The notes under the pieces were generated by a model. That model was not told the origin of the DNA and ran no database searches. It saw nothing but the letters and a program-made list of their open reading frames with translations. The translations under genes were made by a program, and so were the position numbers. Of a stretch of DNA of 26,161 bases, positions 2,101 through 19,628 are shown one piece after another; the stretch's first letter is position 1, and each line of letters opens with the position of its first letter. The DNA comes from a virus: positions 1-26,161 of the IMG/VR virus record IMGVR_UViG_3300012985_000024; one strand, 5' to 3'.

Positions 2101-2458
2101 TGATTTTGACCAATTCTGAAATATCTTCGAAAGAGCGAACAACATAATAGGATCCCCCAGAGCGTCTGAATTTCTCTGAGAACGCAATCTGACTCTGCAG
2201 GATTTTACCCTTGGGCGTTTTGACTTCGATCGCAACGGCATGACCGTCAATGACTCCGAGGATGTCTGCGATACCGTTCGGTCGGTACCTGTTCTCTCTT
2301 TTGCGTCCCCGGATTCCGATGCTATCGTTTTGCCAGAACATCCCGTCAGTATTCACGTTCAGATATTCAATGATCTGATTCTGTAAATACTTTTCGGAGA
2401 TAAATTCCTTTACATCCATAGCTTGAGGCTCGTCTGCAAATACCGCTTTTGGCCCCAT
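2087..2458 (-). CDS. VRR-NUC domain nuclease
   Basis: Small stand-alone PD-(D/E)XK nuclease of the VRR-NUC family, the type phages use on branched or flapped DNA during replication, recombination or packaging. The core is visible: E31 in the first helix (QNQIIEYL), D65 in NGIADILG, E78-V-K80 in AIEVKTPKG, Q88 and Q90 after it, then the closing strand YYVVRSFEDI. A start at 2458 has AGGGGA upstream but overlaps the previous gene by 49 bases; the ATG at 2419 (M14) would overlap by 10 bases with a weaker ribosome site. Both keep the full catalytic domain. It sits at the end of the late operon, opposite the exonuclease/annealing pair. Confidence 0.85.
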   Translation of the reverse strand: MGPKAVFADEPQAMDVKEFISEKYLQNQIIEYLNVNTDGMFWQNDSIGIRGRKRENRYRPNGIADILGVIDGHAVAIEVKTPKGKILQSQIAFSEKFRRSGGSYYVVRSFEDISELVKINGWI

Positions 2459-3504
2459 TGCATCCCCTGTCCTTCATATTCGAAACGTGGGCGAATCATC
2501 CATGAAAAACCTAGCATTCGGCGAATATCAGAATTCAGCGAAGTTTCCAGCTGATCCTGCTCAAAATAAAGATCCAAACCTCGTACTGGGAAAAAACCAA
2601 ACCGACCATAGCTAGTTAAGATTCCTTTACTCTGGTCGCTATCCTGCTGCAAAAAGATATACGCGTGTCCCTTGGATATTCGAGTCGAGTAGCCAAGCAA
2701 GGTTTGAATCCCGTCCTGGACGCGGGCGTGGACGCCGAATTCAAACTTTTCAATCCTTTTCAGTTTCACGTCCCATATCAATTCCGGTTTGTCGTCCGCA
2801 TCGTTTTTAGGAAAATTATCTTTTCCCTTTACAATATCTATATCCGAATGCGCGATCATAACTTTCGACTCGAACCAACGATTGAGCCATGTCACCTGTC
2901 CGATGAATTTTTCGGATCCGCGGCCGAATCCGTTCGCTTTTTTGATGGAAAGATCGTGGTTATTGCTTTGAATCCCAATAGCAGGGATCCAATAACCGAG
3001 CTTAAAAGCCAAACTATGAGTGTCAATATCGACATGATAGTTTACCCCGTAGTTTCGCGTCTGATAGACTCGGTCTCGCCCAAAATATCCAGCAGAGCCA
3101 AACAAACTAAGGCCATCATGTCTAAGAGCCAGTTGGCCCACCGTATACATGTGGAAATTATCCCGCTGTCCTGTGTCTGCATCCCGAATCTCCATCGAAC
3201 GATAGTCGATTCCAAGGTCCAGAAAGTCAGCTTCACCGAGACCGAAGAACTCCCGCGCCTCACCCTCGCGGGCGAAGCTTGCCATGAATTCCTCGGTCAT
3301 CGCACGTCCATAGTTGTTCAAAACATCCCCGCCATCCCCAGTGAGATGGCAGGTTCCGCAATTTGAATAGCCGTGGACTATAGTCTGAGGATAACAGAGC
3401 GCTGGATCACTTATCAATAGTGCCAGTGACAGTAAGCGAATCGCCGATAAGAATGTCTTTATAGCTGACTTCAGCAATGCCAAATTCCTTACGGTTGATT
3501 TCAA
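2410..3504 (-). CDS. exported CxxCH protein with putative outer-membrane beta-barrel
   Basis: Predicted extracytoplasmic protein with a single covalent-haem motif, C49-G-T-C52-H53, in the context HGYSNCGTCHLTGDGG...NNYGRAM just after a signal peptide (hydrophobic core about residues 24-37). The remaining 280 or so residues are rich in alternating aromatic and polar residues, as expected for a transmembrane beta-barrel, ending in Leu-Trp-Met. Proteins of this layout, a CxxCH next to Asn-Tyr-Gly-Arg then a barrel, occur in Bdellovibrio-like and other delta-type bacteria; their function is not settled. The ATG at 3504 overlaps the YceI gene by 98 bases; a TTG at 3477 with AAGGA eight bases upstream fits the signal peptide better. 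No haem partner domain is recognisable. The gene follows the YceI gene and precedes the nuclease. Confidence 0.75.
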   Translation of the reverse strand: MKSTVRNLALLKSAIKTFLSAIRLLSLALLISDPALCYPQTIVHGYSNCGTCHLTGDGGDVLNNYGRAMTEEFMASFAREGEAREFFGLGEADFLDLGIDYRSMEIRDADTGQRDNFHMYTVGQLALRHDGLSLFGSAGYFGRDRVYQTRNYGVNYHVDIDTHSLAFKLGYWIPAIGIQSNNHDLSIKKANGFGRGSEKFIGQVTWLNRWFESKVMIAHSDIDIVKGKDNFPKNDADDKPELIWDVKLKRIEKFEFGVHARVQDGIQTLLGYSTRISKGHAYIFLQQDSDQSKGILTSYGRFGFFPVRGLDLYFEQDQLETSLNSDIRRMLGFSWMIRPRFEYEGQGMQWGQKRYLQTSLKLWM

Positions 3505-3898
3505 ATTTGAACCCGTAGCCTATGCTCGACTTATCCGCGGTTCCCATGATCCGCTTTTCGATGCCGTGAAGGGTGAGATTTCCAGTGAACGCGCCGCCCG
3601 CCTCTGGCATAGGATCAAGCTTCAGCGTGGCCTTTGGGAATTTGGCAGTTTCCAGATATTTTTCATGCATATGGGTGCTCCGAACGCCGCCGTCAAGCTT
3701 GGTCGCGTCGACCGTGAATTCCCCGGAAACCTTCCCTCCCTCGATCTTTGGCTTGCCCTCGATAACGCAGCCAGCAATCGTGAAATCCAGAGTTCCCTTG
3801 ATCGCATGGCCCGAGATTTCACACTTGCCAGCTGCCATGACAAAACCGCTGGTCAAACATAATGCAATGGAAATGAGCGTGAAAACCTGCTTTAACAT
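3407..3898 (-). CDS. YceI-family periplasmic protein
   Basis: Small secreted lipocalin-like protein; YceI folds bind isoprenoid or other lipid ligands, and some members are linked to electron transport or stress. Signal peptide at residues 1-23 (FTLISIALCLTSGFVMAAG). The family signature is clear: GEFTVDATKLDGG, then RSTHMHEKYLETAKFPKATL at 73-92, LHGIEKRI near 110-117, and the closing FEINRKEFGIA. Cys26 and Cys44 could form a disulfide. AGGGA lies eight bases before the ATG, and a GATAAT hexamer is 29 bases upstream. It is the first gene after the endolysin and its end overlaps the CxxCH barrel gene, so the pair is probably co-expressed. Phage-borne YceI is unusual. Confidence 0.88.
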   Translation of the reverse strand: MLKQVFTLISIALCLTSGFVMAAGKCEISGHAIKGTLDFTIAGCVIEGKPKIEGGKVSGEFTVDATKLDGGVRSTHMHEKYLETAKFPKATLKLDPMPEAGGAFTGNLTLHGIEKRIMGTADKSSIGYGFKFEINRKEFGIAEVSYKDILIGDSLTVTGTIDK

Positions 3899-3960: not shown

Positions 3961-4080
3961 ATGGGAAGCAAAAAAGAACCGGCGCCGATTCTGGACATGA
4001 ATTTTTTGAAGAAAAGGCTGGTCGATAGGATCCTGCCAGGGATCATCAAACCAGCCAGTGAAAAACTCCTGCGTGACTAG
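3961..4080 (+). CDS. possible small protein, 39 aa, divergent from YceI gene
   Basis: Function not recognised. The ATG has an AGGAG eight bases upstream, a better ribosome site than many annotated genes here. The product is basic and helical, starting MGSKKEPAPILDMNFLKKRL and ending KLLRD. Its stop TAG shares a CTAG palindrome with the stop of the convergent endolysin gene. It fills the gap between the endolysin and YceI genes on the strand opposite to both. No convincing plus-strand promoter is visible. It could be a small regulator or a chance frame; the ribosome site and neat fit favour a real gene only moderately. Confidence 0.4.
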   Translation: MGSKKEPAPILDMNFLKKRLVDRILPGIIKPASEKLLRD

Positions 4081-4469
4081 TCGTTGGCCTTCTTTTTGTA
4101 AAGGCTCACCCAGAGCACTTTTTGATCCAGCCGGGTATCGACATGAAAGTGCTTGGGATAAATCCCAACACTAAAGCCGAGCGCACACGCCGCGGAAATG
4201 AATTGAAACCGTATCGCACCGTTCCACCGGGTATGGTCGACATCGACTGCAATGCCGTCCAGGTGCTTTGAGCTGCCGGCACCGCCCACCCGGGCATTAT
4301 ATTCCGGTGTCCTGAACCCACCGCCCGGTGCGATAAGGAATGGGACACCGACAATGTTTCGAAGCTTTTGAAGCTTATAAATGAACTCCGCATTCATTTT
4401 TGCCGTATTGGTGTCGGGTGACCAGAATTCATCTTCATAGAAATCAACGCTTAGTTTTTTTCTGTTCAT
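4077..4469 (-). CDS. M15-family peptidase endolysin
   Basis: Zinc peptidase expected to cut peptidoglycan cross-bridges and release progeny. The M15 (VanY/peptidase M15_3-like) core is visible: R53 in GGGFRTPEYN, the zinc motif S67-K-H69 with D76 (GSSKHLDGIAVDV), and the third ligand in HFHVD at H108 with D111. At 130 residues it is a stand-alone catalytic domain with no cell-wall binding domain and no signal peptide, so it needs a holin or similar protein for export. It overlaps the preceding membrane-protein gene by 26 bases, which fits a lysis cassette. Confidence 0.85.
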   Translation of the reverse strand: MNRKKLSVDFYEDEFWSPDTNTAKMNAEFIYKLQKLRNIVGVPFLIAPGGGFRTPEYNARVGGAGSSKHLDGIAVDVDHTRWNGAIRFQFISAACALGFSVGIYPKHFHVDTRLDQKVLWVSLYKKKAND

Positions 4470-4767
4470 ATGCTTTTAGAACCCCCCGAAGCTGTTCGTG
4501 CTCTGCCTTTAGACGCGCGTGCTCTTCCTGCAAATCAAAAAACTTTTGCCGGTATTCCAGAAGTTCCGTTTTCATTTTCTCCAACTCCGCCTTCAGCTCT
4601 TCGACCTGTTCGTTGAGATGTTCTAAGATCTTGTCCTTTTCCTGATTCTGTAACTCCATTTTTTTGAGTGAGTAATAGGGTAATCTTTTCAGAGCATAGA
4701 GCACGACCAAAACCCCGAGTGTCAACGGGCTGAAATCCTTCAAGTGCTGAATCAACACAGGATCCAT
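4444..4767 (-). CDS. single-TM coiled-coil protein, putative holin or inner spanin
   Basis: Lysis-cassette membrane protein, 107 residues. I choose the ATG at 4767 because GGAGG lies four bases upstream; an in-frame ATG at 4815 falls inside a terminator hairpin. Residues 12-26 (FSPLTLGVLVVLYAL) form one short membrane segment near the N-terminus, followed by a charged heptad-rich coiled coil from about 35 to 98. One N-terminal anchor plus a long coiled coil resembles an i-spanin (Rz-like) more than a classic multi-span holin, but no outer spanin lipoprotein is obvious beside it unless a neighbouring lipoprotein serves. The gene runs directly into the endolysin gene. Role inferred from position and topology only. 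Confidence 0.6.
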   Translation of the reverse strand: MDPVLIQHLKDFSPLTLGVLVVLYALKRLPYYSLKKMELQNQEKDKILEHLNEQVEELKAELEKMKTELLEYRQKFFDLQEEHARLKAEHEQLRGVLKAYEQKKTKR

Positions 4768-4797
4768 CGTGCCTCCAAAAACAAAAAATGGTTGTAA

Positions 4798-4827
4798 TAA
4801 AAAAGGACGCTGCATGATTCATGCCGC
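4798..4827 (-). terminator. rho-independent terminator after the cytochrome group
   Basis: On the minus strand CGC-g-GCATGA-a-TCATGC-a-GCG folds as a nine-pair hairpin with one mismatch, followed after TCC by TTTTTATT. It lies between the 67-residue gene and the lysis genes, so lysis transcription needs read-through or antitermination unless a promoter lies in the short gap. Confidence 0.6.
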
Positions 4828-4906: not shown

Positions 4907-5110
4907 TTACGTGGGCTGTGATATTGCTTCAAAAAAATCACGTTGGCGCTGTTCGAAATAGTTTTTGTCGATGGTGCAGATCATCTTCCCGTCCACGTGG
5001 AAAAGGAAATGACCTGACCTTGATTCGACCGTATCGAATTCGAGGTCAACCTTTCGGCGCTTTGGAACCCGCGCTGAAACGTGATCGTTGTAATCGTGAT
5101 AAGCGCTCAC
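4907..5110 (-). CDS. hypothetical protein, 67 aa, GTG start
   Basis: Function not recognised. The GTG start has AAGGA nine bases upstream in the 12-base gap after the small cytochrome gene, so it is likely translated from the same message. The product is soluble, with charged N-terminal part, a beta-hairpin-like middle (SGHFLFHVDGKMICTIDKNYF) and a helical tail. No signal peptide. It lies between the cytochrome gene and a terminator, and may be the last gene of the cytochrome group or an isolated lysis-region protein. An ATG five bases before the GTG opens only a two-codon frame. Confidence 0.55.
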   Translation of the reverse strand: MSAYHDYNDHVSARVPKRRKVDLEFDTVESRSGHFLFHVDGKMICTIDKNYFEQRQRDFFEAISQPT

Positions 5111-5122: not shown

Positions 5123-5440
5123 TTAAAAAAAACCAAGGAACTTAGTCTTGTCCCCCGCGCTCATTTGAGAAGCGTATGGGGGAGGCATGGTCGAATTCTG
5201 AACGCGCGACTTGGCAGACGATGCAATCAGCGCCTGCTCGGTTTTGGTGAAAGGTGCAGTCGCATGACACTCGACACAATATTTTTGCATTACTGCCTGC
5301 GCATCAGCGAAGCTGGTTTTCCCGCCTGGCTGAGGCGTGGGCGTCGGAGTTGGTCCGGGAATAGGCTGCTGCGCCTGCTGCTGAGGTGCAGGGCCCCCGC
5401 AGGAAACGATCAGAAAAACGATTGCCAGCAGAAATTTCAT
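5123..5440 (-). CDS. small monohaem c-type cytochrome lipoprotein
   Basis: Exported electron carrier. Residues 1-13 are a lipoprotein signal (FLLAIVFLIVSC, lipidated Cys14), followed by a Pro/Gln/Thr-rich tether (about 17-40) and a compact cytochrome c domain. The haem attachment site is C55-V-E-C58-H59, and the expected axial Met is M85 in STMPPP, which is the usual class I arrangement. At 105 residues it is a short, single-domain member. AGGAG lies seven bases before the ATG. It follows the large CxxCH lipoprotein by 17 bases, so both should be co-transcribed; together they could form an electron-transfer pair on the periplasmic side. Such genes normally belong to the host, not a phage. Confidence 0.85.
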   Translation of the reverse strand: MKFLLAIVFLIVSCGGPAPQQQAQQPIPGPTPTPTPQPGGKTSFADAQAVMQKYCVECHATAPFTKTEQALIASSAKSRVQNSTMPPPYASQMSAGDKTKFLGFF

Positions 5441-5457
5441 CGTTCCACTCCTATCGA

Positions 5458-6948
5458 TTAATCCAATTGCCCCGCATCTCTAAAAAGACGCATCTCATCT
5501 TGGAGTACGCGAAAACCCCGGCTGAAATCACTGATCGCCACAACCCCGCCCGGTTCAAGCAGAGCACCGAATAGGACCTTACTCAGGTTGGTTCCAGCCA
5601 GGCGCACGCTGAATTCATCGGGCTCCAGGAAAACCTTGCCTGCGACTTTTTCAAGAGTGAGCTCCCCCCGAATCGGCTGGATGAGTTCCGTCACGACCGG
5701 ATCTTCAGCAAAAGTGCTCACGCCAATCCGTTTCAAAGCGTCGGTGTGCTCGCGGTTGGCCACGGCGCGTTTGGCCTGAAACTTATCCGCCCGATAGAAA
5801 GTGTCAGCCAATGCCTTTTCGGCTGCATTAAAATTCCCATTGTTTTGGACAATGCTGAAAACCTCATCCCGGAAAAAGATTCCCGATTCCTGGTGATGGC
5901 AGTTTGAGCATGCCCCCAAAGTGATATCCGGCGGAAGGCCGCGACCTGCCTGTTCTACGTCGATAACTACGTTCGTGGGCGCGATAACTTCCGCTGTTCC
6001 CCCGGCGTTTGACAATCGATAGCCTGTCATCAGTCCGTTTGGCAGACTAAAGATCCACTCACTCGCGACGAAATTGAAAACCTTATTGGTCTGAAACCCG
6101 GGAATCAGGGCCATGTTTTTGAAAAACGGGTTTTGCTGAATGGAATCGTTTTTGGCCAGCGAAACATCGCCCGTGAACATCAGAAAGCCGTCCTGGGTTG
6201 TGTCCAGGATGCAAATGAGCCTCGGCTTCCCAAGGGCAATTTGCGACTTCCCCCCCGCAGCGCACGCGGGGCTCTCCTCATTGAATTCCTTTTGAAGGTC
6301 TATGCCAAGTTTGGCCAGGAACTCCGTATCGTTCAGCGGCTGCTCTGTCAGATCGTAGTAAAGCTGGTTGCCAATGCTGACCTGGTCGGCCTGCATCACA
6401 GTCAGGAAAAAGCTGGACGCGTAAACCATCGGCTGGTTGGTTCCGGTCAGAGCTCTCAGCGTACGCCCGCGCACCGAATTGGAAATGAAAGGGAGGACGT
6501 TGGCGCGTTCGAATTTCTGCCATTCCTCGTTGGTCATCCCGATATCGTCAAGATTGATGCGGTGCACGCAGCCGACATCCTCATCGATGGTATTGACGTA
6601 GGCGATGAGCCGCTCAGTCGATACCATATTGATGCCCTTATTGATCCCGGCCAGGACGTTTGAAAGGTCCTTGATGCCCTGATCATAAAGGTCGCATGTC
6701 AGAAAATAGCGTGTGCGACTGCGATCAGCCGCGTTCAGCGTTTTTATGTCGCGATCGGCATACTGTTCAATCTCATCGAAACGCAAAAAACCAGGTTTAC
6801 CGGGCTCGACAGGGGGCGCTGGTTCGATGGGCAGTTGGGGAACCGGCACCTCAACCTGAACGGTTTTGTTCACGGGCTGCTGACAGCCGAAGGCCGCAAA
6901 AAGACATAGCATGGCTGGAATGCACATAGTCTTCATAAAATAACCCAT
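5458..6948 (-). CDS. large CxxCH-containing lipoprotein, cytochrome-associated family
   Basis: Predicted lipoprotein of 496 residues. The signal (about 5-21) ends AAFGC with lipidated Cys22, followed by a Pro-rich tether to about residue 52. The next domain (LRFDEIEQYADRDIKTL, RYFLTCDLYDQG, then RINLDDIG with W143 and PFI near 153-155) resembles an uncharacterised domain that I recall from large c-type cytochromes of delta-type bacteria. A single haem motif C347-S-N-C350-H351 is followed by another His (HHQESGIFF). Extra Cys at 85, 127, 229 and 246 could form disulfides. No ribosome site precedes the ATG at 6948; Met5 or Met8 are alternative starts. It heads the cytochrome group, just after a promoter-like sequence. 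Enzymatic role unknown. Confidence 0.75.
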   Translation of the reverse strand: MGYFMKTMCIPAMLCLFAAFGCQQPVNKTVQVEVPVPQLPIEPAPPVEPGKPGFLRFDEIEQYADRDIKTLNAADRSRTRYFLTCDLYDQGIKDLSNVLAGINKGINMVSTERLIAYVNTIDEDVGCVHRINLDDIGMTNEEWQKFERANVLPFISNSVRGRTLRALTGTNQPMVYASSFFLTVMQADQVSIGNQLYYDLTEQPLNDTEFLAKLGIDLQKEFNEESPACAAGGKSQIALGKPRLICILDTTQDGFLMFTGDVSLAKNDSIQQNPFFKNMALIPGFQTNKVFNFVASEWIFSLPNGLMTGYRLSNAGGTAEVIAPTNVVIDVEQAGRGLPPDITLGACSNCHHQESGIFFRDEVFSIVQNNGNFNAAEKALADTFYRADKFQAKRAVANREHTDALKRIGVSTFAEDPVVTELIQPIRGELTLEKVAGKVFLEPDEFSVRLAGTNLSKVLFGALLEPGGVVAISDFSRGFRVLQDEMRLFRDAGQLD

Positions 6949-7060: not shown

Positions 7061-7297
7061 TCATGCGTTTGAACGTTCTTCCTGAAGTTCAGCGGCTCGA
7101 TTCTCAACCTGATCATCGCGGATGGCCTTGCCGATCCACATATAAACCTCTTCGAGCTTAGTCAGGGCCAATGATTTAGATCGCCCGTCCCGAAGATTGT
7201 CATCGATGAGACTTTCGAGATTCGAGCAAATGTCCTTTGCGGCATTCTGGATGACCTGCGCAGTTTCATCATAGCGAACGTAATCGAATCGACTCAT
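7061..7297 (-). CDS. acb2: Acb2/Tad1-family cyclic-nucleotide sponge (anti-CBASS/anti-Thoeris)
   Basis: Small phage protein of the Acb2/Tad1 hairpin family, which counters CBASS or Thoeris defence by binding and holding the signal molecules (cyclic di- and trinucleotides for Acb2, cyclic ADP-ribose isomers for Tad1). The diagnostic helical segment is GRSKSLALTKLEEVYMWIGK followed by AIRDDQ (about residues 38-63), preceded by SRFDYVRYDETAQ and an Asn/Ser-rich helix. At 78 residues it is close to known short members. It is the second gene of a tiny unit after the tail fibre, starting in the ATGA overlap of the 35-residue gene with GGAAGG upstream. Family assigned from remembered sequence pattern; ligand choice cannot be read. 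Confidence 0.75.
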   Translation of the reverse strand: MSRFDYVRYDETAQVIQNAAKDICSNLESLIDDNLRDGRSKSLALTKLEEVYMWIGKAIRDDQVENRAAELQEERSNA

Positions 7298-7430: not shown

Positions 7431-9857
7431 TTATGCGATGCGGACAGCCCTAATTGAGCCGTAAACATTCACTGTCCCAGCAGAAAAATCGGCTCGTCCT
7501 ATCAGATAAAAATCTGTATTTGCGGATATGCTAACTCTACAAGCTGGAACAGATACACTAGCGTCAAACGTACCTAAATTAGTTGTCATTGCCGAGCGCC
7601 TTTCCCCGGAGCTATTCGGAACAGCTAGGGTATCAGCGCTGGGCATTGTTGCCGAAGTCCTAGATATAGCTCCTGCTATTGCTGTACTGGTTACAGGGGT
7701 TACGGGAGTATATCCAACTTCTGCTGAAATTTCCCAGGTGCCGGGCGTCAAAGTAAGCGGCGATGCTGTTACATTCGCTACAGTTGCAGTAGCAATTGAA
7801 GGTGCAGCGGAACGGAGACGTGACTGCGTTTTCTCTTCCCCAACATAGCCAGAGCCAATCGCAACACCCGTCGTCAAACCCGGAGCCTGCCCGGCCTTAT
7901 ACAAACCAGCAGAGCCATCCGTCCCCGCGTTTGCGTAGGGGAGTGAGGCTTTTTTGGTTTTGCGGACGCGCCATTTGTAAGTTGTGGCGCTACTCCAGCC
8001 TGCGCCCGCAGCTCCGAATGCACCACTTGCAAGGCGACCTCCGTTACCTAGCGACACCCATACCGAAGTTGACGAACGCGGTTTTATTCCCATTCCATAG
8101 GATGCATTTTGTGATCTATAAAGTTGGACGATGTTATTTCCGCAGTATTCAATCGGAACCCATTCATTAGTTGAACTTGGATTAAGTATCTCAATCGATA
8201 GGTGGTCGTCAGATTGAATCGGATACTGGAAATTTACCACGTAGTCGGTTACTTCGCCCGCTGTTACAGTAGCAGAGTTAGTGCCGACAAAGAACGATCC
8301 ACCAGATACAGATCCAGTAGCATACTGAGTATTCGCAGAAGTTCCCCCGGAACCGTCGTTACTTGCAAACTCCTCAGCCGGTGCCGGACCTGTGCTGACT
8401 GAGCCGGCCCACTCTGCGATTGGGACGTCAATATCAACAGTGATGTAATCTCCAGTGGACACAGACCAAGCACTTGTTGTGGTAAGGACGCCTGTTCCGC
8501 TTTCATCAACCAAAACAAGTTGAGTAGTATTTAGATAGGCCGCCCCGCCGTAATTTTGCGTGCCTGTGTCGATACCATGCCACGACCCATTGCTAAGCGT
8601 GTCCGCGCTAGCAGCCAAGGACGTGTCTACTGTCAGCCCGGTTCCTGCAAGTAATTGTGCATGGGATAGGATTAAGTTTCCAGCTCCAGGAGTATTAGTG
8701 AATGCAAATTGTAAATGGAACTTGGCTTTATTCCCCACCTGTTGATATCGAGCAGACATGGTTGTATTGGTTAGTGAAGTTGTGGGGCTGGATGGAATAT
8801 CTTTTCCAATTGAAGCAATGGAACTTACAAACGGCCAGCCGAGGAACACGTTGCAAACGTTCAGTGTCGCAGAGCCCGTTCCACTGGTCCGGGCGAAACG
8901 AAGGGTATATGCCGTTGACGCAAGGGCATCGAACGCCGTCGTATACCTTACGATGCCGTTTGGCAGATAGCTGATGCTGCTCGAATCATTGCGAAGTGCC
9001 TGCCGTGTCGAACCCTGGTAAACGGAAATCGTCCATTCACTCGTAGCGAAGCCAGTTCCAGGACGAATGAAAAGATCGACTTGCAAGGTTCCGTTCATGG
9101 CCGCTGATGTCGTGACGGGAAAGGAATTGTAATTTGTCGCTTCGGTTCCGCTGTTCGTTGCGACAAATTTGATGGCCGAGTTGGTCGCGCCTTCCAGGGG
9201 AAGGTCGGCCGATGTCGTTGTCGTCACTGGCGCTGCGAACACAGTTCCCGTCGCAGTCCAGCCGGTCGCAGTGCTAGGCGATGTGATGAGGTTTATGCCA
9301 TCGGTTCCACTCCCGCCCGATGATGCAGCGCCTGCCAGACGCCAGCGGGAACCGCCTGTCTCATAAACAAGGCCAACCATCTGACCGGCCGCAATGGAAA
9401 AATCCGCTCCGGTTCCCGTCACGATCCGATTGGCCGCGGTCGCACTGGTATCTTCGTTTTTGAGCGTGATGGCCTGGCTGGTCTGTCCGTTGACAAAAAA
9501 GATGACCTTTTGAATCGTCGGAACGATCGATCTGATGCTGGTCAGGGAGTTATTAGTGAACTGGATGATCTGGGCCACGGTGTTCGGCGTGATATCCTGG
9601 GAAGCGCCCGTAGTTGTCGAGTCGGTCTGCGTTTCAAACGAAGTTTTGTCATTCTGCCAGGCCGTTCCGTTATGCTCACGGATAAGCTTTTCAGTCGTGT
9701 TCCAATAGATATCACCAGCAGCGCCTGGGCCATGATCAGCCTCGAATGCGGCGTCATTGGCATATGGTTCATGGGAATTCGATGTGAAATCATTCATTGT
9801 TGGATTTCCAACGTTCGCGCCATCGATATTACTTAGATTCCTAGTTTTCGTTGACAT
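7431..9857 (-). CDS. tail fibre / receptor-binding protein
   Basis: Large distal tail protein of 808 residues. The N-terminal 70 or so residues (HEPYANDAAFEADHG...GDIYWNTTEKLIREHNGTAWQND) look like a fibre attachment segment. A beta module follows near 75-175 (ANRIVTGTGADFSIAAGQMV...YETGGSRWRLAG), a carbohydrate-binding-like beta-sandwich near 190-340, then further beta repeats. The last 130 residues (YVGEEKTQSR, ANVTASPLTLTPGTWEISAE, RVSISANTDFYLIG, VYGSIRAVRIA) match a C-terminal trimerising or receptor-binding beta domain common in phage fibres. GAAGG lies eight bases before the ATG, and the start overlaps the hub-like gene by 17 bases. The C-terminal half appears richer in A/T codons than its neighbours. 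Confidence 0.82.
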   Translation of the reverse strand: MSTKTRNLSNIDGANVGNPTMNDFTSNSHEPYANDAAFEADHGPGAAGDIYWNTTEKLIREHNGTAWQNDKTSFETQTDSTTTGASQDITPNTVAQIIQFTNNSLTSIRSIVPTIQKVIFFVNGQTSQAITLKNEDTSATAANRIVTGTGADFSIAAGQMVGLVYETGGSRWRLAGAASSGGSGTDGINLITSPSTATGWTATGTVFAAPVTTTTSADLPLEGATNSAIKFVATNSGTEATNYNSFPVTTSAAMNGTLQVDLFIRPGTGFATSEWTISVYQGSTRQALRNDSSSISYLPNGIVRYTTAFDALASTAYTLRFARTSGTGSATLNVCNVFLGWPFVSSIASIGKDIPSSPTTSLTNTTMSARYQQVGNKAKFHLQFAFTNTPGAGNLILSHAQLLAGTGLTVDTSLAASADTLSNGSWHGIDTGTQNYGGAAYLNTTQLVLVDESGTGVLTTTSAWSVSTGDYITVDIDVPIAEWAGSVSTGPAPAEEFASNDGSGGTSANTQYATGSVSGGSFFVGTNSATVTAGEVTDYVVNFQYPIQSDDHLSIEILNPSSTNEWVPIEYCGNNIVQLYRSQNASYGMGIKPRSSTSVWVSLGNGGRLASGAFGAAGAGWSSATTYKWRVRKTKKASLPYANAGTDGSAGLYKAGQAPGLTTGVAIGSGYVGEEKTQSRLRSAAPSIATATVANVTASPLTLTPGTWEISAEVGYTPVTPVTSTAIAGAISRTSATMPSADTLAVPNSSGERRSAMTTNLGTFDASVSVPACRVSISANTDFYLIGRADFSAGTVNVYGSIRAVRIA

Positions 9858-11799
9858 AGAAATACCTTCCCTGGATTGTCCGGCCTTGTTGTTTATTGTC
9901 GATACTGATGATCATGATTTTGTTTTTGAACATGTCATGGTCGATGAAAACCATATCCCCGAGCTCGATTGAGACATCCTCATCGAGCAGATCGAACGTC
10001 ACCAGTGTCGTTGGTGCCCCGTATATCTCTGTCATTTCCGCCCAACGATCGGTAACAGCAGTGGGGATTTCCGAAAGGACATGATTCACACTAAAGGTTT
10101 TCTGCGATGCAAAAAGGTCCTTATTTGGAGCTTCGATGTTCTTATAAAGGCTGTATTTATAGACATCCGATCGCGCGTATTTCGGCCGGAACTGCACGTT
10201 AGCTGCCTGATTCCGGTATTCGCTGCTGACCGATAGCCTTGTGATCTGGGTTTCGTCCAGGGTCTGACTGGATGCCTCGGTTGGGTCTATCTTTTTGATA
10301 AACGGCACGTCATTGTCTGCGGGGAAAACCAGGATTGTCATCAGGCTTTGGTTCATTTCTGCAATCAGGGAACCAAGGTTTGGCATGTCCTGACCCAAGC
10401 CGACCTGCTGGATCGTCTCAACCGTGCTGAATTCGGCCGAAAGGCTTGCGAAGGATGTCGGCTCGACCGTGAAACCGTGCTGTTCCATGATCCATTGCAT
10501 GAGCTCAAAATTATCTGCTGCTCCGGTGATGCCGGTGAACACGACATATGTTTCGTTATCCAATAGGTTGATTCCGGTGAAGTTTACTGTAATCCAACGG
10601 TGTCCACCCGGAGTGAATGACCCAGACGAAACAGCCGGAAGGGTCCAGGTGTTATCGGGGATACGACTGGAATACCAGTGCTCAGTCGGTGAAAAGCTGA
10701 GCATCGTATTGAAACGATCATAGGCTGTATCCTCAAGACCGAGGAATGCCGCGCAATTGCCAGTCACAGTATCTTTTTGCCATACCCTTGATGCACTGAT
10801 GACTGCACCGAGGTCGCGCCTGATTAGGATGATTTCCCCTTGAATGACGCCATTTGTTATTGTCGCATTCGCAATATTTTCAGAACGCTTATAAAATCTC
10901 TGGTCTGGAACCGGAAACGACGCCGTATTAAAAAGAATATTGCTTGGGCTTGATACGAGAGATTGGAAGGTGGGCATTCGTCCAATGATCCCGGTAGTCG
11001 CAGACGTCGGAATCACCCGAACCATGACGGCGCCTGTGTTCAAAGATTTCTGGCCGAACTTGGTAGCCCCTCCCGTTGGGAAAAAAGTCGGATTAGTTGG
11101 TCCTACGTCAATCTCTGAGTATTCCGTCTGATCATAGGGAAATTCAGGCCCAAAGAGCATTGGTATCGCAACGCCCTCAAACTGTTCGGGGACGTTGGAT
11201 CCATTGTAATAGGCCGTGTTCGTGCTTCGATCGATTCGGTTCAGGTATGCAGGATCTCCGAAATGGCATTCAGAGTCGAATATCGTGACGCGCTTTTGAA
11301 TATTGATCGTGATCAGATAGTCGGAAATCGTATGCTTGGTTGCCACGCCTTTAAAAACGATCTGGCCATCGCGATAAATCCGGACAATCGTGTTTGGCAT
11401 GATCAGCTGCTGCTGAGCCAGTTGGATCCAATCATCATCGAGTTGGATCACGACGGCACCAACGTTGATTTCGGTGAGGCCCGATTCGAAGGACTTGAGT
11501 GAGGTGCTGAAATTGATGAAATTTCGAAGGCGGTTTTCCCAGAAGACTGGATCTGAACCTGAGTCAGTTGGATCGGATGGCAGATTTTGGCTCGGCGCGT
11601 CGTATAAGAGATAGAGCGGGAATTCCACGAGGACCGTTCCGACCGTGTAAGACGGAATGGAAAGGCTTCCCCCTGTCCAACTGAAAGGCGTGCTGATCCC
11701 GTTTACATAAACCGTCATCACTTCGAAAGACCAGCTGGCCGTGGTTCCGGTAATGATGGATGTGATATCTGCCAAAGGCGCGAGGGTGACCTGCTGCAT
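9841..11799 (-). CDS. tail tip / baseplate-hub-like protein
   Basis: Virion protein of 652 residues between the distal tail genes and the fibre, the place of the tail-associated hub or central tip protein in siphophages. The middle contains a hub-like beta region (FWENRLRNFINFSTSLKSFE, LDDDWIQLAQQQLIMPNTIV, RIYRDGQIVFKGVATKHTIS) resembling the domains that thread and close the tail tube. A loop-rich insertion (about 250-420) and a beta-strand C-terminus (SIELGDMVFIDHDMFKNKI, GRTIQGRYFYV) follow. No peptidase motif is visible. GGAG lies eight bases before the ATG, right at the end of the upstream gene. Family not identified precisely; role by position and architecture. Confidence 0.65.
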   Translation of the reverse strand: MQQVTLAPLADITSIITGTTASWSFEVMTVYVNGISTPFSWTGGSLSIPSYTVGTVLVEFPLYLLYDAPSQNLPSDPTDSGSDPVFWENRLRNFINFSTSLKSFESGLTEINVGAVVIQLDDDWIQLAQQQLIMPNTIVRIYRDGQIVFKGVATKHTISDYLITINIQKRVTIFDSECHFGDPAYLNRIDRSTNTAYYNGSNVPEQFEGVAIPMLFGPEFPYDQTEYSEIDVGPTNPTFFPTGGATKFGQKSLNTGAVMVRVIPTSATTGIIGRMPTFQSLVSSPSNILFNTASFPVPDQRFYKRSENIANATITNGVIQGEIILIRRDLGAVISASRVWQKDTVTGNCAAFLGLEDTAYDRFNTMLSFSPTEHWYSSRIPDNTWTLPAVSSGSFTPGGHRWITVNFTGINLLDNETYVVFTGITGAADNFELMQWIMEQHGFTVEPTSFASLSAEFSTVETIQQVGLGQDMPNLGSLIAEMNQSLMTILVFPADNDVPFIKKIDPTEASSQTLDETQITRLSVSSEYRNQAANVQFRPKYARSDVYKYSLYKNIEAPNKDLFASQKTFSVNHVLSEIPTAVTDRWAEMTEIYGAPTTLVTFDLLDEDVSIELGDMVFIDHDMFKNKIMIISIDNKQQGRTIQGRYFYVNEN

Positions 11800-12276
11800 T
11801 CAAATCGCTCCGTAAAGTTCAATGGCCATCGGAGCCGAACTTGCTGCACCTGGGTTTTCGTTATAGGCCATGGTTACAGGCCAATCCAAAACGCCGCCTA
11901 TGAAGACCGTGTCAGCGGTATATGCATAATTTTCCAGTTCGAGCTCGAAACGCGTGTCGGTTCCAGCATTGAGGTTGAACCGCGGCTCAAAGGTGAATCG
12001 AACCCAGCCATAAAAGTTATTAGTCGATGGGTAAAGGTCCTCAATCGTCCCCACCACAACGTCCTCGCTCGTGCCTTCCAGGATTCCTGCGACGTAGGCA
12101 TTGACTCGCATCCTGACCAGGGGCTGAAGGCCGCGCTTGAATATCTGAAGGCCGAATATCTCAAGCTGCTGGTCAGTGTCAGGATCAACCGGGCCGAGGT
12201 CGATGAGATTGTCCCCGCCAGTGCATATGACAACGGCAAGATCGTCTGGATATTGGTTGAAAGCCATACTAGACAA
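11800..12276 (-). CDS. distal tail structural protein, unknown family
   Basis: Not recognised by family. The 158-residue product is beta-rich and acidic, with alternating hydrophobic strands (DLAVVICTGG, VRMRVNAYVAGIL, TRFELELENYAY, VFIGGVLDWPVTMAY). It overlaps the upstream gene by eight bases and ends one base before the hub-like gene, whose ribosome site lies in its last codons. Position between a distal tail protein and the hub suggests a tail-tip component. Confidence 0.6.
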   Translation of the reverse strand: MSSMAFNQYPDDLAVVICTGGDNLIDLGPVDPDTDQQLEIFGLQIFKRGLQPLVRMRVNAYVAGILEGTSEDVVVGTIEDLYPSTNNFYGWVRFTFEPRFNLNAGTDTRFELELENYAYTADTVFIGGVLDWPVTMAYNENPGAASSAPMAIELYGAI

Positions 12277-13078
12277 CCTCCCGCAGTTGAAAGGCTACGT
12301 TGAATTTGTTTTGGTATGCATGGGTGAACTGGGGAAGCGAATCGAAATAGCAGAGCGTCGTGCCGAATTCCCATTCGAACGCTATTTGGAGCGGATCGAG
12401 GATGAATATGAACGGCGTCGAGAGTCCGAGGGTCTCGGTGGACGACTGAATCTTGCGGCGATCATCAGTGTTAAGGTAGCTGAAGCCCATAGCACTGAAT
12501 AGAGCGTATTGATTTTTTCGAACAGTGTAGACAACTCCGGAGTCACTGCTTGCCCTCCTCGTAAGATCAACCCAGCTGAATTCAAACTGCTGCTTGGCAT
12601 TGAACTGAAAGTCTATATGATCGCCCAAAAAGATGGCACTGATTTCGATGTCGTCTGGGTTTAAAAGATCCTCGATCGTTATCTGCCAGTAGCGGTATTG
12701 CATGCCGGTTGGGTTATCATCGTCAGTCAGATCTGCAAACACACCCTTATCAGTCACCGTTGCAGTCGTTGTAAACGGTTCCCCGCCAGTGAAAAGGTTG
12801 ATCATATTGGCTTTGATCGTGATGACAGCCTGATCTGAAATCCTGAGATATTTATCGATTTCCCCAAATATCGCAAAAAAGCTGCACTGCTTATTGGCGA
12901 GCAGGTCAATTTCGATGACGAAATCTTTGTCGTCAGGCTTCCAGACGCGGCCACGTTGCCGAAAGTTCAATGCATTGGTAAACGGGAACGACGCATGCTC
13001 AGGAGCCACAACCGTGGCTGAATCAAGATGATTATTGTCGGCTATTCGAGCATTCCGTCGCAGTTTTAGATTCGACAT
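12269..13078 (-). CDS. distal tail (Dit-like) structural protein
   Basis: Protein of 269 residues directly after the tape measure, the usual place of the distal tail protein that joins tube and tip. The sequence is beta-rich, with a galactose-binding-like middle (FVIEIDLLANKQCSFFAIFG, RYWQITIEDLLNPDDIEISA, IFLGDHIDFQFN) and a C-terminal sandwich (FSWVDLTRRASSDSG, PFIFILDPLQIAFEWEFG). This pattern, strands describing position-dependent binding followed by a second sandwich, suits a Dit-like hub adaptor, but homology to a named Dit is not shown. It starts three bases after the tape-measure stop. Confidence 0.6.
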   Translation of the reverse strand: MSNLKLRRNARIADNNHLDSATVVAPEHASFPFTNALNFRQRGRVWKPDDKDFVIEIDLLANKQCSFFAIFGEIDKYLRISDQAVITIKANMINLFTGGEPFTTTATVTDKGVFADLTDDDNPTGMQYRYWQITIEDLLNPDDIEISAIFLGDHIDFQFNAKQQFEFSWVDLTRRASSDSGVVYTVRKNQYALFSAMGFSYLNTDDRRKIQSSTETLGLSTPFIFILDPLQIAFEWEFGTTLCYFDSLPQFTHAYQNKFNVAFQLREVV

Positions 13079-13081
13079 TCA

Positions 13082-15325
13082 CTATGCTCCGAGAGGTGCG
13101 CGTGTTTTTATTATCCGATCAAAATTCTGACTTCGTCCGCCTGGCCCTATGGATGCCGGATTGAATCCGCCCTGAGATTGTGGACTATTCTGGGCAATCT
13201 CTGTGATGATCGGTTCAATGGTTTTGGTATCGAATGATGGAATGCTGCTCGATTGCATGCTTCCGATCTGATCAAGCTTGGCGATGATCGTAGTCAGTTT
13301 TTCAATGACAGCGCCAAACGTCACTGACTCCAGGATCCTCGCTTGAATGTCATTGCTTTGACGCATGAGGATGACCTGATCGTTCGCAATTGCGCCTTGG
13401 ACAAAGCTGGCTTCAAGATCTGCAAAATTCTTTTTGGGGACTATGACTTCCCCTGGAGTCAAGAGCGCCGGAACCGTGTCTTTGTTTCCTACTCCGGGAA
13501 CCATACCGCCTTCAGCGAACGCGGGAAGTTTGGTAGCCTGGATCGCGCGCACGTTTTCAAGACCAGCCGCCGTTGCTGCCGCCGCCGCTGCTATACCCAG
13601 TCCAACACCGACAACTGGAATACCGGCCAGGGATTTATACGCTTCAATGGCACTGACGGGAATTGCCACCAGCGCCTGCGCAATGGACGCCGCCTTGCCA
13701 ATTTCAAAGGCTTCCCTATTTCTAGATTTCATCAGACTGGACAAAGCAGCAAGTCCCGTCTGCGCCGTAGTCACCCGTTGGGCATATGTCTGCTCATCGA
13801 ATTTCTTTTGAGCATTCTGTGTCGCAATTTCAAGGTTGAACTGCTCGGCCTGGGCTTTTTTCGAAATGGCAAGGCGATCTGTTTCCGCTTTCTTTTCGGC
13901 CGCAATCTTTTTATTTAGGGTGTCCTGCCTTTGCAACAGTTCAGAACTTTCGAATTCCTTTAGGAGTATGAGGCGATCGGATTCAATCTTGAGGCGTTCG
14001 CTGGTCAGGACGGCTTCCCGTTCCTGAAGGGCCGTGACCTTTTCTGCGTCGTTGGCGCCTTGCTGCTCTTTTAGGATCGCATTTCTGACAGCCGCTTCCT
14101 GAAAAGCTATCTCAGTTATCCGCTTTTCTTTTTCCTCGACCTTTTTGACTTCGGTCTCAATCGCCTTATCACGTTCGGCCTGCTCAATCTTTTGCTGTTC
14201 GGCAAGCTTGCCCGCAGCGGCATCGGCCTTTTTCTGGTCGATTGCCTTTTGTTCAGCGTCGTCGGCCTTTTTCTGCTCGGCTGCTATTTCATTGTTTCGT
14301 TCGACGCTGAGGGAAACCAGTTCCTTGTTCAGTTCTTTGTATTTTTGCAGGATCTCAGTGCGCTCGATATTGAGCCTGATCGTTGAGAACCCGCCAGCGT
14401 TGTTGCGTTTGATGTCCTCTTCGACATCATTCAGGGTGCCACGAAGTTCCTCAAGCTGGTCCTTTAGTTCCGCGACCCGTTTCGATTTCTGGCCGCCTTG
14501 TTCCAATTCCCTTTGGGCTGCTGAATACGCAGTGAGGGCATTGACGCCTTCAGTTACAACCGAAATCCAATCGGAAAAGATCCCTTTTTGCCTGCCACCA
14601 ATCTCAGCGCCGAGTGCCGTGAAGGCATCCTTGAGTGTGGACAGCTGGCCAGATACCGTTTTCCCGAGCCTTTCCGTAGCGCCAAAGAACTGACCACCTG
14701 CCGAAGTCATCTTTTCGAATGCGGATGCGACAGCGTCAGCCGTGATCGCTCCATCAGATATCAATCCCCGAATGGAGGTGCTCGCCACGCCGAGGGATTT
14801 GGCAATCTCAGGCCCGATGTTAACGCCGCGTTCGATCAGCTGGTTGAATCGCTCGCCTGTCAGCTTCCCCTCGGCCTGGATCTGGCCAAAGATCGTCGCC
14901 AATTCCCCGATCGGCTTGCCCGTTGCGGCGGCTACCTCGCCCAATTGCCGAAGCTGCTCGAGCGATTGCTTGCTCGATGATCCAAAGGCCAAAAGTGTCC
15001 GGTTGGCGTCGGCCAGTTCGGTCAATTCGAATGGGGATGTTGCGGCGAATGCCTGAAGCTTCTCAAGCTGCAGCTGCGCGCCTTTGGTTGAACCCGTGAA
15101 CGCAATGAATTGCGTCGTGAGGTCCTCCATCTGGCGCGTGGAATCCAGGACAAAACTGAAAGTGCCTTTCAAAGCAGCAAGGGAACCAAGTGCAGCAGCG
15201 ACTTTTCCAAAAGAGCCGGAAAGGCCATCGACGGCCTTTTCAGCTTCCTTGGACTGTTTGATGAGTAGGGTTAAGGGCTGAGCTGGATCGGTCTTTATCG
15301 CAATGTTAATTGTCGCATCAGCCAT
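13082..15325 (-). CDS. tail tape measure protein
   Basis: Sets tail length and probably helps DNA entry. N-terminal region (about 35-230) has the phage tape-measure domain (RQMEDLTTQFIAFTGSTKGA, FAATSPFELTELADANRTLL, GKLTGERFNQLIERGVNI). A long Lys/Glu/Gln-rich coiled coil runs from about 270 to 540, then a hydrophobic helix (IPVVGVGLGIAAAAAATAAG) and the typical FAEGGMVPGVG...DTVPALLTPGEVIVP segment near 605-635. At 747 residues, the usual rule of about 0.15 nm per residue predicts a tail near 110 nm. Its ATG overlaps the stop of the T extension of the tail chaperone by eight bases. Confidence 0.93.
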   Translation of the reverse strand: MADATINIAIKTDPAQPLTLLIKQSKEAEKAVDGLSGSFGKVAAALGSLAALKGTFSFVLDSTRQMEDLTTQFIAFTGSTKGAQLQLEKLQAFAATSPFELTELADANRTLLAFGSSSKQSLEQLRQLGEVAAATGKPIGELATIFGQIQAEGKLTGERFNQLIERGVNIGPEIAKSLGVASTSIRGLISDGAITADAVASAFEKMTSAGGQFFGATERLGKTVSGQLSTLKDAFTALGAEIGGRQKGIFSDWISVVTEGVNALTAYSAAQRELEQGGQKSKRVAELKDQLEELRGTLNDVEEDIKRNNAGGFSTIRLNIERTEILQKYKELNKELVSLSVERNNEIAAEQKKADDAEQKAIDQKKADAAAGKLAEQQKIEQAERDKAIETEVKKVEEKEKRITEIAFQEAAVRNAILKEQQGANDAEKVTALQEREAVLTSERLKIESDRLILLKEFESSELLQRQDTLNKKIAAEKKAETDRLAISKKAQAEQFNLEIATQNAQKKFDEQTYAQRVTTAQTGLAALSSLMKSRNREAFEIGKAASIAQALVAIPVSAIEAYKSLAGIPVVGVGLGIAAAAAATAAGLENVRAIQATKLPAFAEGGMVPGVGNKDTVPALLTPGEVIVPKKNFADLEASFVQGAIANDQVILMRQSNDIQARILESVTFGAVIEKLTTIIAKLDQIGSMQSSSIPSFDTKTIEPIITEIAQNSPQSQGGFNPASIGPGGRSQNFDRIIKTRAPLGA

Positions 15326-15844
15326 TGGGTAACCTCATCTTATCAACTTCAGCAGACAGATATGAAACCAGGTTGAATTCCTTGGGTGTCAGGTCCCGGA
15401 ACTCAAGTTCAAAACCGAGCCGGGATGCACCGCGTATTGCTTCCAGTAGACCCACTGCGAGGATCACGTCCTCATGCTGATCAAGGTCAACGTCGCGCAA
15501 ATAAGGAGCCTTCGCCGCGATATTGACCGCGACCAGCCTCAGGGCTTTTTTGTCGATTCACCTAACTTACCGCCCGCGATATCCCACGCCAGAGTGATAA
15601 ATGCATCGATGTTATCCCGATCGTTCAAGAGCTCATCGATCGAATCGACGATGCCTTGAACCTCGATGATAAAGCCCTTGATATGTTCAATCGCCTTGGA
15701 TGTTCTCAGCCAAACGTCTGACTGACACTCAGGGGAATGCCAGCCTGATTGTCCGAGAAAACGCAGCTGCTCGATTACGTTCGGCAATCGATACTTGATG
15801 CAGCCGCCATTTGCCAATTGAACTTCCTTGATGGACTGACTCAT
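15318..15844 (-). CDS. tail assembly chaperone GT, made by programmed -1 frameshift
   Basis: Frameshifted fusion of the G chaperone with a T domain that recruits tape measure and tube protein during tail assembly. The zero frame runs from 15844 to the slip site at 15545-15551; after a -1 slip the frame continues from base 15545 through ALRLVAVNIAAKAPYLRDVD to a stop at 15318-15320. The fusion would be about 175 residues (100 plus 75). The T frame is open only from 15557, so it has no room for an independent gene, and the TTG at 15500 is not a convincing start. The T stop overlaps the tape-measure ATG. This G/GT order before the tape measure is a hallmark of long-tailed phages. Confidence 0.85.
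15539..15844 (-). CDS. tail assembly chaperone G
   Basis: Zero-frame product of 101 residues, made in excess over the frameshifted GT form. It is helical with an N-terminal beta segment (IKEVQLANGGCIKYRLPNVI), W35 and W45, and ends ESTKKP. It lies between major tail protein and tape measure. GAGG precedes the ATG. Sequence resembles phage tail chaperones by size, place and the terminal Lys-Lys slip codons rather than by a strong motif. Confidence 0.8.
   Translation of the reverse strand: MSQSIKEVQLANGGCIKYRLPNVIEQLRFLGQSGWHSPECQSDVWLRTSKAIEHIKGFIIEVQGIVDSIDELLNDRDNIDAFITLAWDIAGGKLGESTKKP
15545..15551 (-). promoter_or_regulatory. -1 ribosomal frameshift slip site A AAA AAG
   Basis: In the zero frame the codons read ACA AAA AAG CCC TGA. 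The heptamer A AAA AAG is a canonical bacterial -1 slippery sequence, three codons before the G stop, and the -1 frame is open into T. Confidence 0.85.
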
Positions 15845-15850
15845 GAAACC

Positions 15851-17380
15851 TCACAAAAAGTTAATATAGATGTCTTCCATGTCTGGACCGACGAATGCCG
15901 TGCCTTCCATATTCACAACCAGATAGCCGTCCTGGTCTGCAATGGTGTTGGCCGTAATGCTGAGCGTTGGCAGATAGACAGACACGATCGTGCCTGGAAC
16001 CCAGTTCCCGCCGATCTTTTTGCCGTGGACGAAATGAAGCTGCATTTCGACGTTGTTCAGGAGGTTGTAAAATTGCTGGACGTTGTGTTTTTGGAATTTC
16101 AGCGTAGCCGATACCCTGACTTCCCGCGACAGGATCACAGACTCGTCAATCCCGGTCACGGCGCACCAGTTGGGGACATCGGTCTTTGGCGTGGCAATCG
16201 AAATACTGAGCGCCTGGCCGCCGAAGCAGAGGTAATCAGAGAAAGTTCCGAGCTCAAGCATGTTGTCGCGAACAACCTGCGGGGCTTGACTGTCGTAGGA
16301 CGGAGTTACGCCGGGATCCCAGCTGAGCTCAGTGTCTGAGGTATAGGTGAGAGACGCCGTGTCATCGGTATTCGCGAAGCCGAGCTTGGTTTTGGCGGAG
16401 TTGGCGGTGTTCGTTCCCGATTGCCAGAGAAGGGAGAGGACTGTGCCATCGGATGTGATCGTGAACTTTCCAGTCGAGTTGTTCCATGCGCAGCTGATGA
16501 TATCAGCGCCGGACGATGCCGAAGCACCGGTCATCTTGGATGCAATCTCGGCGGCGAGGTCTATCGGTGTCGCGTATGTCTTGACTTCCAGCTGAGCAGC
16601 GACCGTGCCAGCCGAATCAGTGAAATCGATATAGCGAGAGCTGCTAGTAATCTCAACCGGATCGACAAAATATTGAACCCCCCCGAATTCAAAGGTCACG
16701 GCCGCCAGTTCATTGGCCGTGAATTCGATGTTCATGCTCGAGGTCCGACATCCTGCGATCATTTGATGGACGGCGCTGTTAGTCTGGGCCTGCCACATGT
16801 GAGCGGTAAAAGTCGGCTGCGTTGTGGAAGGCAGATAGAGCACCGACTTCCCAAGGTTCACGGCCGCAGCAGGTGCAGTGCCGAGATTGAATGCAAGGGG
16901 GAGGTTGGTCGATGTGATGCCGTCAAAGATCGGGCGCACGGCGTAGTTATTCACAGCGTCCTTTATCAGGACCGCCTGGCCTTTTTGAAAGTTGGCCTCG
17001 ATGCCTGCCACGACTTTGATGTTCCCGCGTACGCTCGTGGTTCCTGCCGTGGAACCCGCATCAGTCGCGTATTCAGTCGAGTTGACGTCGACTTCACCAA
17101 GGCAGGATTCGATCAGGATTCCGTAGTCAGGTGCCACGCCCTCGGTGCCGGATGGCTTGAAATATTTGGGAATGGAACCGGTTGGAGCCTGGGATGTGAC
17201 GAATGCCTGGGAAGCACCGATCGAGTTTCGGAGCTCATCCGATGTCACGGTATTGACGGCACCGGTGAATGATGCACCTTCACGGACAACAGTGAAATCA
17301 TTGCCCGTAGCCGCGACGGGAGTGCCTTCTGTGACTTCCTCAACGAAGGCGACGATGCTGGAACGCGTTGCAAAAGCCAT
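15851..17380 (-). CDS. major tail tube protein with inserted domain
   Basis: Tube subunit of 509 residues, larger than the usual 150-300. The tube fold is split: N-terminal part (RSSIVAFVEEVTEGTP, then ELRNSIGASQAFVTSQAPTG) and C-terminal part (REVRVSATLKFQKHNVQQFY, TIVSVYLPTLSITANTIADQ, NMEGTAFVGPDMEDIYINFL). Between about 245 and 355 lies an inserted beta domain (SSRYIDFTDSAGT, TYATPIDLAAEIASKMTG, STGKFTITSDGTVLSLLWQS) of a type found in several phage virion proteins. Its start TGATG overlaps the tail terminator stop with GAGGAG upstream. It is followed by the tail chaperones. Confidence 0.85.
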   Translation of the reverse strand: MAFATRSSIVAFVEEVTEGTPVAATGNDFTVVREGASFTGAVNTVTSDELRNSIGASQAFVTSQAPTGSIPKYFKPSGTEGVAPDYGILIESCLGEVDVNSTEYATDAGSTAGTTSVRGNIKVVAGIEANFQKGQAVLIKDAVNNYAVRPIFDGITSTNLPLAFNLGTAPAAAVNLGKSVLYLPSTTQPTFTAHMWQAQTNSAVHQMIAGCRTSSMNIEFTANELAAVTFEFGGVQYFVDPVEITSSSRYIDFTDSAGTVAAQLEVKTYATPIDLAAEIASKMTGASASSGADIISCAWNNSTGKFTITSDGTVLSLLWQSGTNTANSAKTKLGFANTDDTASLTYTSDTELSWDPGVTPSYDSQAPQVVRDNMLELGTFSDYLCFGGQALSISIATPKTDVPNWCAVTGIDESVILSREVRVSATLKFQKHNVQQFYNLLNNVEMQLHFVHGKKIGGNWVPGTIVSVYLPTLSITANTIADQDGYLVVNMEGTAFVGPDMEDIYINFL

Positions 17381-17835
17381 CAGGCTGTCTCCTCAAAATA
17401 ATCGACTGTGATTGTCATGCTGACGATAATAAACTGCTTCGAATCATCGATCAAATACTCGACACCGTTGTCGAACGAATATCTGGAACTGACGTCCATC
17501 CCTGTCAGGGTCGGGTCTTTCTCGACTGCAGATATGAATGCGAACTGATCGTCGACAAGGCTATCCTCAAGTTGTTCGCGATAGTCCGCGTCCATATTTG
17601 GCATATAGATGTTGACCATCACGATTTGAAACTGCCGCCGTATCCGCATTTGGCCGAGGTTGCACCATTCGTTAGTGAGGTTTTCCGCGGACGAATAGCC
17701 GATCGAATATCCCTTTTGGAAAAGGGGATTCGCATTGTCGGATGTCTCATAGCTATCGGCCAGCTTCACATAGGCAGGCAAAACTGCGAGCATGATGGCA
17801 TTCAGGCGGTCCCTGATGTCGGCAACAGCTGTCAT
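17380..17835 (-). CDS. tail terminator protein
   Basis: Protein of 151 residues just before the major tail gene, where the tail terminator (gpU-like) sits. It has an N-terminal helix (VADIRDRLNAIMLAVLPAYV), a strand region with RRQFQIVMVNIYMP, a helical middle (YREQLEDSLVDDQFAFISAV) and a closing strand FIIVSMTITVDYFEE, which is the alpha/beta order expected for this family. Four-base overlap with the connector-like gene upstream; GAGGG before the ATG. Confidence 0.7.
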   Translation of the reverse strand: MTAVADIRDRLNAIMLAVLPAYVKLADSYETSDNANPLFQKGYSIGYSSAENLTNEWCNLGQMRIRRQFQIVMVNIYMPNMDADYREQLEDSLVDDQFAFISAVEKDPTLTGMDVSSRYSFDNGVEYLIDDSKQFIIVSMTITVDYFEETA

Positions 17836-19151: not shown

Positions 19152-19628
19152 TTATGTCCTAAACATCTTTCCGGCCAGCGTAATTCCCATCGCAGTCAGT
19201 CCTGTCAGGTTGTCTCTGACTGTTACCCGGAACCTGTCATTTGGTTGAAAAATAATCGGCGGGTCATGCCACTGCCTGCCAATCATCACTGTTCTGTTTC
19301 CGTTTCCTATTTGGACCGTCTCATCGACGAATACCCGATATAGGTCAAAGTTGTTTTTTATGAGACCTGTCAGGCTATAGGTCTGTCCTGAAAATAGAAA
19401 ACTCAGGTCAAGGCCATTGGTGAGCGGTGCGAAATCGGCGAATTTGGTTATGAGCTCATTCACGTTCCCTGCCGTTGACAGGATGAAAGAGGACTCGAAT
19501 ATCTGGAAGCGTTCGGTCGCGGTTGTCGGCGCAAAATCGAAGTTTTGCGGCGTGACGGATCCATTGACGGCCATATTGCTGACCGCGCCGTTCAAGAGAT
19601 TCGCTCTGAAGGGGAATACCGTGGCCAT
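19152..19628 (-). CDS. virion protein, paralogue of upstream gene's C-terminal domain
   Basis: 158 residues, unknown family. It appears paralogous to the C-terminal part of the next upstream protein: both have LLNGA...VNGS/T, a Phe-rich strand, LTNGLDLSF or LTNGIQIIR, and a closing RVTVRDNLTG or IIRIRDNLTE motif followed by GI. This suggests a duplicated beta-sandwich virion domain. GAGGT lies eight bases before the ATG. Confidence 0.55.
   Translation of the reverse strand: MATVFPFRANLLNGAVSNMAVNGSVTPQNFDFAPTTATERFQIFESSFILSTAGNVNELITKFADFAPLTNGLDLSFLFSGQTYSLTGLIKNNFDLYRVFVDETVQIGNGNRTVMIGRQWHDPPIIFQPNDRFRVTVRDNLTGLTAMGITLAGKMFRT

Follow-up and report, generated by a model that had tools for sequence, protein, structure and literature searches.

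A c-type cytochrome is encoded by phages in the form of the auxiliary gene soxD (PMC8190135). YceI lipocalins of bacteria bind isoprenoids, including ubiquinone-8, and are described with a cytochrome b561 partner and with protection against lipid peroxides, as in the bacterial lipocalin BcnA which, together with the cytochrome b561 LcoA, guards the envelope against lipid peroxidation (PMC9113575). In Cbp2D, a YceI and two cytochrome c domains are combined in a single protein (PMC8981238). The locus presented here is located in an incomplete virus record of IMG/VR (IMGVR_UViG_3300012985_000024; the whole stretch of 26,161 nucleotides is referred to as the window). It comprises genes for four conserved exported proteins that travel together, two lipoproteins, a YceI lipocalin and a porin-like protein, of which the lipoproteins and the porin carry a CxxCH motif. 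In an exported protein, this motif normally receives covalent haem from the host cytochrome c maturation system.

Organization of the module and its proteins

Thirty-two ORFs of the window were taken as genes. Along the minus strand, the genes of the tail fibre and the Acb2-type protein are followed by those of the 496-aa and then the 105-aa lipoprotein, after which come the 67-aa protein, the coiled-coil protein, the M15 endolysin, YceI and lastly the CxxCH-porin; beyond the porin lie recombination genes on the opposite strand (DUF3799 at 69-641). Three CxxCH motifs were observed in the 32 ORFs, compared with ~0.006 expected by composition. Two of them, in the lipoproteins of 496 aa (5458-6948, minus strand; C347-S-N-C350-H351) and 105 aa (5123-5440, minus strand; C55-V-E-C58-H59, with a Met in STMPPP), had been noted in a first-pass annotation, and ORFs, motifs and positions are exactly as described there. 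Both genes of the annotated pair are present, but the unit is larger, the YceI gene (3407-3898) and the gene of the third CxxCH protein (2410-3504) having been missed beyond the lysis genes.

Further minus-strand genes, lying between the module halves or next to them, are not members. They code for a conserved 67-aa protein (4907-5110), a coiled-coil protein that has a weakly hydrophobic segment and may be holin- or spanin-like (4444-4815), an M15-type peptidase endolysin (4077-4469; PF08291, phrog_894), and an Acb2/Tad1-hairpin protein of anti-CBASS type (7061-7297; PF24729, E=6e-12), the last of which is confined to the window and the two relatives nearest to it. A promoter scan gave a number of sites no higher than in shuffled sequence.

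The 496-aa protein starts with a hydrophobic stretch followed by a lipobox-type cysteine at C22, and the 105-aa protein has the same arrangement with C14, both recognized by inspection. C, C and H of the motif are unchanged in six aligned versions of each lipoprotein, and at the sequence level the signals for export and lipidation are conserved along with the haem-attachment motif. A portion of a bacterial multidomain c-type cytochrome is homologous to the longer lipoprotein: residues 59-374 of the latter, CxxCH included, share 26% identity with the later part of a 1157-aa protein from a Neorhizobium petrolearium plasmid (WP_227705619.1), which has extra CxxCH motifs and whose gene adjoins one of the ferredoxin-reductase family. 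None of the cytochrome families of Pfam matched the 496-aa protein, two scans with it of GTDB contigs gave no chromosomal relative, and its AF2 model (pLDDT 37) offers no usable fold. Its candidate distal ligand, H401, is lost in the version carried by an unrelated phage, IMGVR_UViG_3300049825_000606 (hereafter G016). Sequence searches of PDB with both lipoproteins or their profiles disclosed nothing convincing.

The Pro-rich 105-aa lipoprotein appears to contain a minimal cytochrome c-like domain. All 6 homologues match the Cytochrome_CBB3 profile of Pfam, though under its curated threshold (best E 0.002), the 106-aa protein of G016 matches PccH (0.0013), and M85, a candidate distal ligand, is invariant, including in the G016 version. 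Being small, Pro-rich and encoded next to the endolysin and coiled-coil genes, this lipoprotein might instead act as an outer spanin-like lysis accessory, with its neighbours timing or helping lysis. We regard such a role as improbable, because conservation resides in the CxxCH...Met domain and not in the variable Pro-rich linker, two sister phages (G009 and G010) manage without the protein, and G016 keeps all four genes beside a different lysis enzyme.

The YceI family protein (3407-3898, minus strand) is a periplasmic lipocalin with a signal peptide. It matches PF04264 (E=4e-15; 56.9 bits, cut-off 23.7) and YceI structures in PDB, and the PF04264 cut-off is also passed by the homologues from five other contigs of the clade and from G016. 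Membership of YceI in the module, together with the envelope location of all four proteins and the published BcnA/LcoA shield against lipid peroxidation (PMC9113575), fits an antioxidant function, in which YceI-bound quinol and the cytochromes would quench peroxyl radicals or peroxides and let infected or lysogenic cells survive stress until lysis. Such antioxidant protection comes nearest to rivalling the electron-transfer relay proposed below, and we hold it to be rather unlikely: the module yielded no match to a cytochrome b561 or to a peroxidase family, the porin would be superfluous, and the partner would be c-type, whereas the published system has a b-type one.

The start of the fourth gene (2410-3504, minus strand) is overlapped by the YceI gene. 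Its product of 364 aa has a hydrophobic N-terminus, as seen by inspection, while the exact start codon is uncertain, no in-frame ATG having been seen ahead of the signal sequence. In the AF2 model, built with eight relatives, ~270 residues form an up-and-down barrel of ~16 strands, as of a porin-like exported outer-membrane protein. The pLDDT has a mean of 56 overall and reaches 65-80 in the C-terminal third; the barrel is mostly at 50-80 with a low-confidence stretch at 123-164, and confidence is also low in the pre-barrel region bearing the CxxCH (C49/C52/H53). Comparison with classical porins gave a Foldseek prob of 1.0, and in VIA-align the best match was OmpT (Z 19.9; 2.8 A over 245), with Z 19.0 for OmpU. 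The CxxCH is unchanged in all homologues, G016 included, M38 (A5/A9 numbering) is invariant across them, and the region around the motif matches Cytochrome_CBB3 below the cut-off (best 0.0082). The haem may be placed at the periplasmic mouth of the barrel or in its pore.

Distribution, conservation and loss of the module

Eight other contigs of the same clade were revealed when the proteins or profiles of the 496-aa lipoprotein and the CxxCH-porin were used to scan the viral collection. The IMG/VR sample is small, with nine clade contigs (window and G008 counted) and one unrelated phage. The whole four-gene module is present in seven of the eight, and the remaining one, G008, ends within this region. 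The order 496-aa lipoprotein, 105-aa lipoprotein, lysis genes, YceI, porin is the same in all seven, except for the end-to-end break in the circular G003, and the module proteins of the related contigs are 45-97% identical. G003 is 35.8 kb long and has a 127-base end repeat with the module spanning the join, which makes a complete circular assembly very likely.

In view of the incomplete record and the bacterial appearance of the cytochrome genes, an artefact of assembly or a chromosomal piece could be suspected, and the first-pass annotation had named misassembly, or the lack of any related phage with the genes, as what would overturn its reading. Both lipoproteins are, however, found in the seven other clade contigs, which come from several metagenomes and hold the module between the same phage genes, in G003 across the repeated ends, as well as in the unrelated G016. 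The genes are thus truly phage-borne, and the artefact, to which we attach only a negligible chance, is refuted by these contigs.

When the window is compared with its closest relative, dN/dS amounts to 0.06 for the 496-aa lipoprotein, 0.08 for the 105-aa lipoprotein, and 0.11 for both the porin and YceI, pointing to strong purifying selection on all four genes. The module is nevertheless dispensable. The sister phages G009 and G010 are placed inside the module-bearing clade in a tree of five structural proteins (UFBoot 93), and both of them are devoid of the two lipoproteins, with a phage lysozyme gene in the interval between fibre and M15 genes. Their CxxCH-porin is reduced to a broken remnant without the CxxCH, and the YceI reading frame, broken in G009, is still open in G010. 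The parts of the module therefore decay together, in what should be counted as one loss event and not two, as G009 and G010 are close relatives.

None of the four module genes has a match in 50,697 GenBank phage records, and matches of the terminase and capsid among GenBank phages are too distant for naming a host. A scan of 46 early proteins, taken from three genomes of the clade, showed no integrase or repressor family. Several relatives (G001, G003, G005, G009 and G010) have a VRR-NUC-type nuclease gene after the porin position (L063:844-1275, L066), and none was seen in the window. A segment of ~12 kb in the window (11119-23042) has 98.4% DNA identity to IMGVR 3300012988_000035, while identity drops to 85% in the adjoining 5.5 kb and is lower still in the fibre region, suggesting recent mosaic recombination.

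G016, 48.3 kb long, was disclosed in a search with the YceI profile. It had not been found by the first two scans with the 496-aa protein, which indicates that pattern-based scans can miss distant relatives. This phage differs from the window clade in its terminase, prohead protease, capsid protein (Phage_capsid family), amidase endolysin and YqaJ recombinase, and its terminase gene carries a LAGLIDADG homing-endonuclease-like sequence (L088:6886-9198). The four genes stand side by side in G016, in the order YceI, CxxCH-porin, 488-aa CxxCH lipoprotein, 106-aa CxxCH lipoprotein, and they occupy the lysis end of the late region as in the window clade. With E values of 5e-9 to 1e-58, they are the strongest matches to G016 among the 32 ORFs of the window. 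Apart from them, E<1e-3 is reached only by a portion of the tail fibre (6e-8) and by 33 residues of the tape measure (3e-5). The 67-aa, coiled-coil and M15 genes situated between the module halves are not common to G016, and the 67-aa protein is unmatched there. Because the four genes are shared and the intervening ones are not, they make up a unit separately acquired or exchanged by unrelated phages. In the tail fibre (7431-9857), residues 113-276 share 32% identity with the fibre of G016, which may hint at related hosts.

Conversion of the cell surface has to be weighed as well. The porin and lipoproteins would then replace or mask phage receptors, leading to superinfection exclusion, with haem being secondary. 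In the relative G014, the place between fibre and lysis genes is taken by different exported proteins, two with CAP domains (L071:16232-17127), and phage-encoded porins are known in structure libraries. The lambda proteins Bor and Lom and the Lc porin of PA-2, envelope morons sited near lysis or tail genes, also speak for surface conversion. Masking, on the other hand, requires neither three invariant CxxCH motifs and YceI nor co-inheritance across two unrelated phages, and we judge surface alteration or exclusion to be somewhat less probable still than antioxidant protection, next to which it is ranked on account of the other exported proteins in the G014 slot.

Proposed electron transfer at the host outer membrane

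The best explanation of the module, to which we give an even chance, is that the four envelope proteins make up an electron-transfer relay at the host outer membrane. The host cytochrome c maturation system would attach one haem per CxxCH. Both lipoproteins, having no Asp at position +2, would sit in the outer membrane, and YceI would carry an isoprenoid quinone. Electrons would be exchanged between a haem at the mouth of the porin and the quinones or cytochromes of the periplasm, along a path from the quinone carrier through the two outer-membrane cytochromes to the haem on the porin. In this way, the respiratory chain of the infected cell could be kept oxidised, or a surface acceptor fed, during late infection.

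An electron-transfer function had been suggested in the first-pass annotation from the lipoproteins, and that part of its reading gains from the quinone-type lipocalin and the CxxCH-porin as module members, so that it can be regarded as partly supported. The four-gene module contains no electron donor and no membrane quinone enzyme. The members, their motifs and their joint inheritance are observed, and haem loading, potentials, the direction of electrons and the benefit of the module are what we infer. A more far-reaching proposal, which we put forward tentatively and consider less likely than not, is that the module represents a phage-encoded outer-membrane electron conduit, the first such, in which a haem porin, two cytochromes and a quinone lipocalin would move electrons to or through the outer membrane, and which spreads between unrelated phages.

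Comparison with known systems

As phage soxD is already known, a viral electron-transfer gene is not new as a general idea. It resembles the module, with its putative cytochromes, in that a phage encodes a c-type cytochrome destined for the host periplasm; unlike the module, soxD codes for a single sulfur-oxidation subunit, some copies of which are without the motif, whereas the module codes for four envelope proteins with motifs intact. Membership in the SoxD group was rejected, no soxC or other sulfur gene being present among the early genes and module neighbours scanned. Searches of the open-access literature turned up no description of phages that carry cytochrome lipoproteins, YceI and a CxxCH-porin as a set.

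The N. petrolearium cytochrome is a multidomain protein with further CxxCH motifs, and neither YceI nor a CxxCH-porin is listed alongside it. BcnA/LcoA and Cbp2D resemble the module in that a YceI is partnered with a cytochrome. BcnA/LcoA, however, includes a b561, which the module does not have, and the partners in the module are separate CxxCH lipoproteins and a porin, all phage-borne. Bor and Lom of lambda and the PA-2 Lc porin are likewise phage-borne envelope proteins encoded near tail or lysis genes, but they have no haem motifs and do not form a joint four-gene unit.

With the MtrCAB and PioAB conduits, the module shares the combination of an outer-membrane barrel and c-type cytochromes, both predicted in its case, which is a likeness in the way of working. 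MtrB is a far larger barrel that holds the decahaem MtrA, whereas in the module ~16 strands go with a single CxxCH per protein, and the scanned contigs of the clade contained no multihaem ORF. With a single haem site in each protein and a smaller barrel of ~270 residues, the module is not an MtrCAB conduit, and this assignment was rejected. Phage electron-transfer auxiliary genes are known mainly as single enzymes or parts of photosynthesis. If the relay is true, the module would be a transferable multi-protein envelope redox unit by which viruses re-wire the bacterial respiratory surface late in infection, and its porin with a c-type haem site of its own would be a new protein arrangement that is directly testable.
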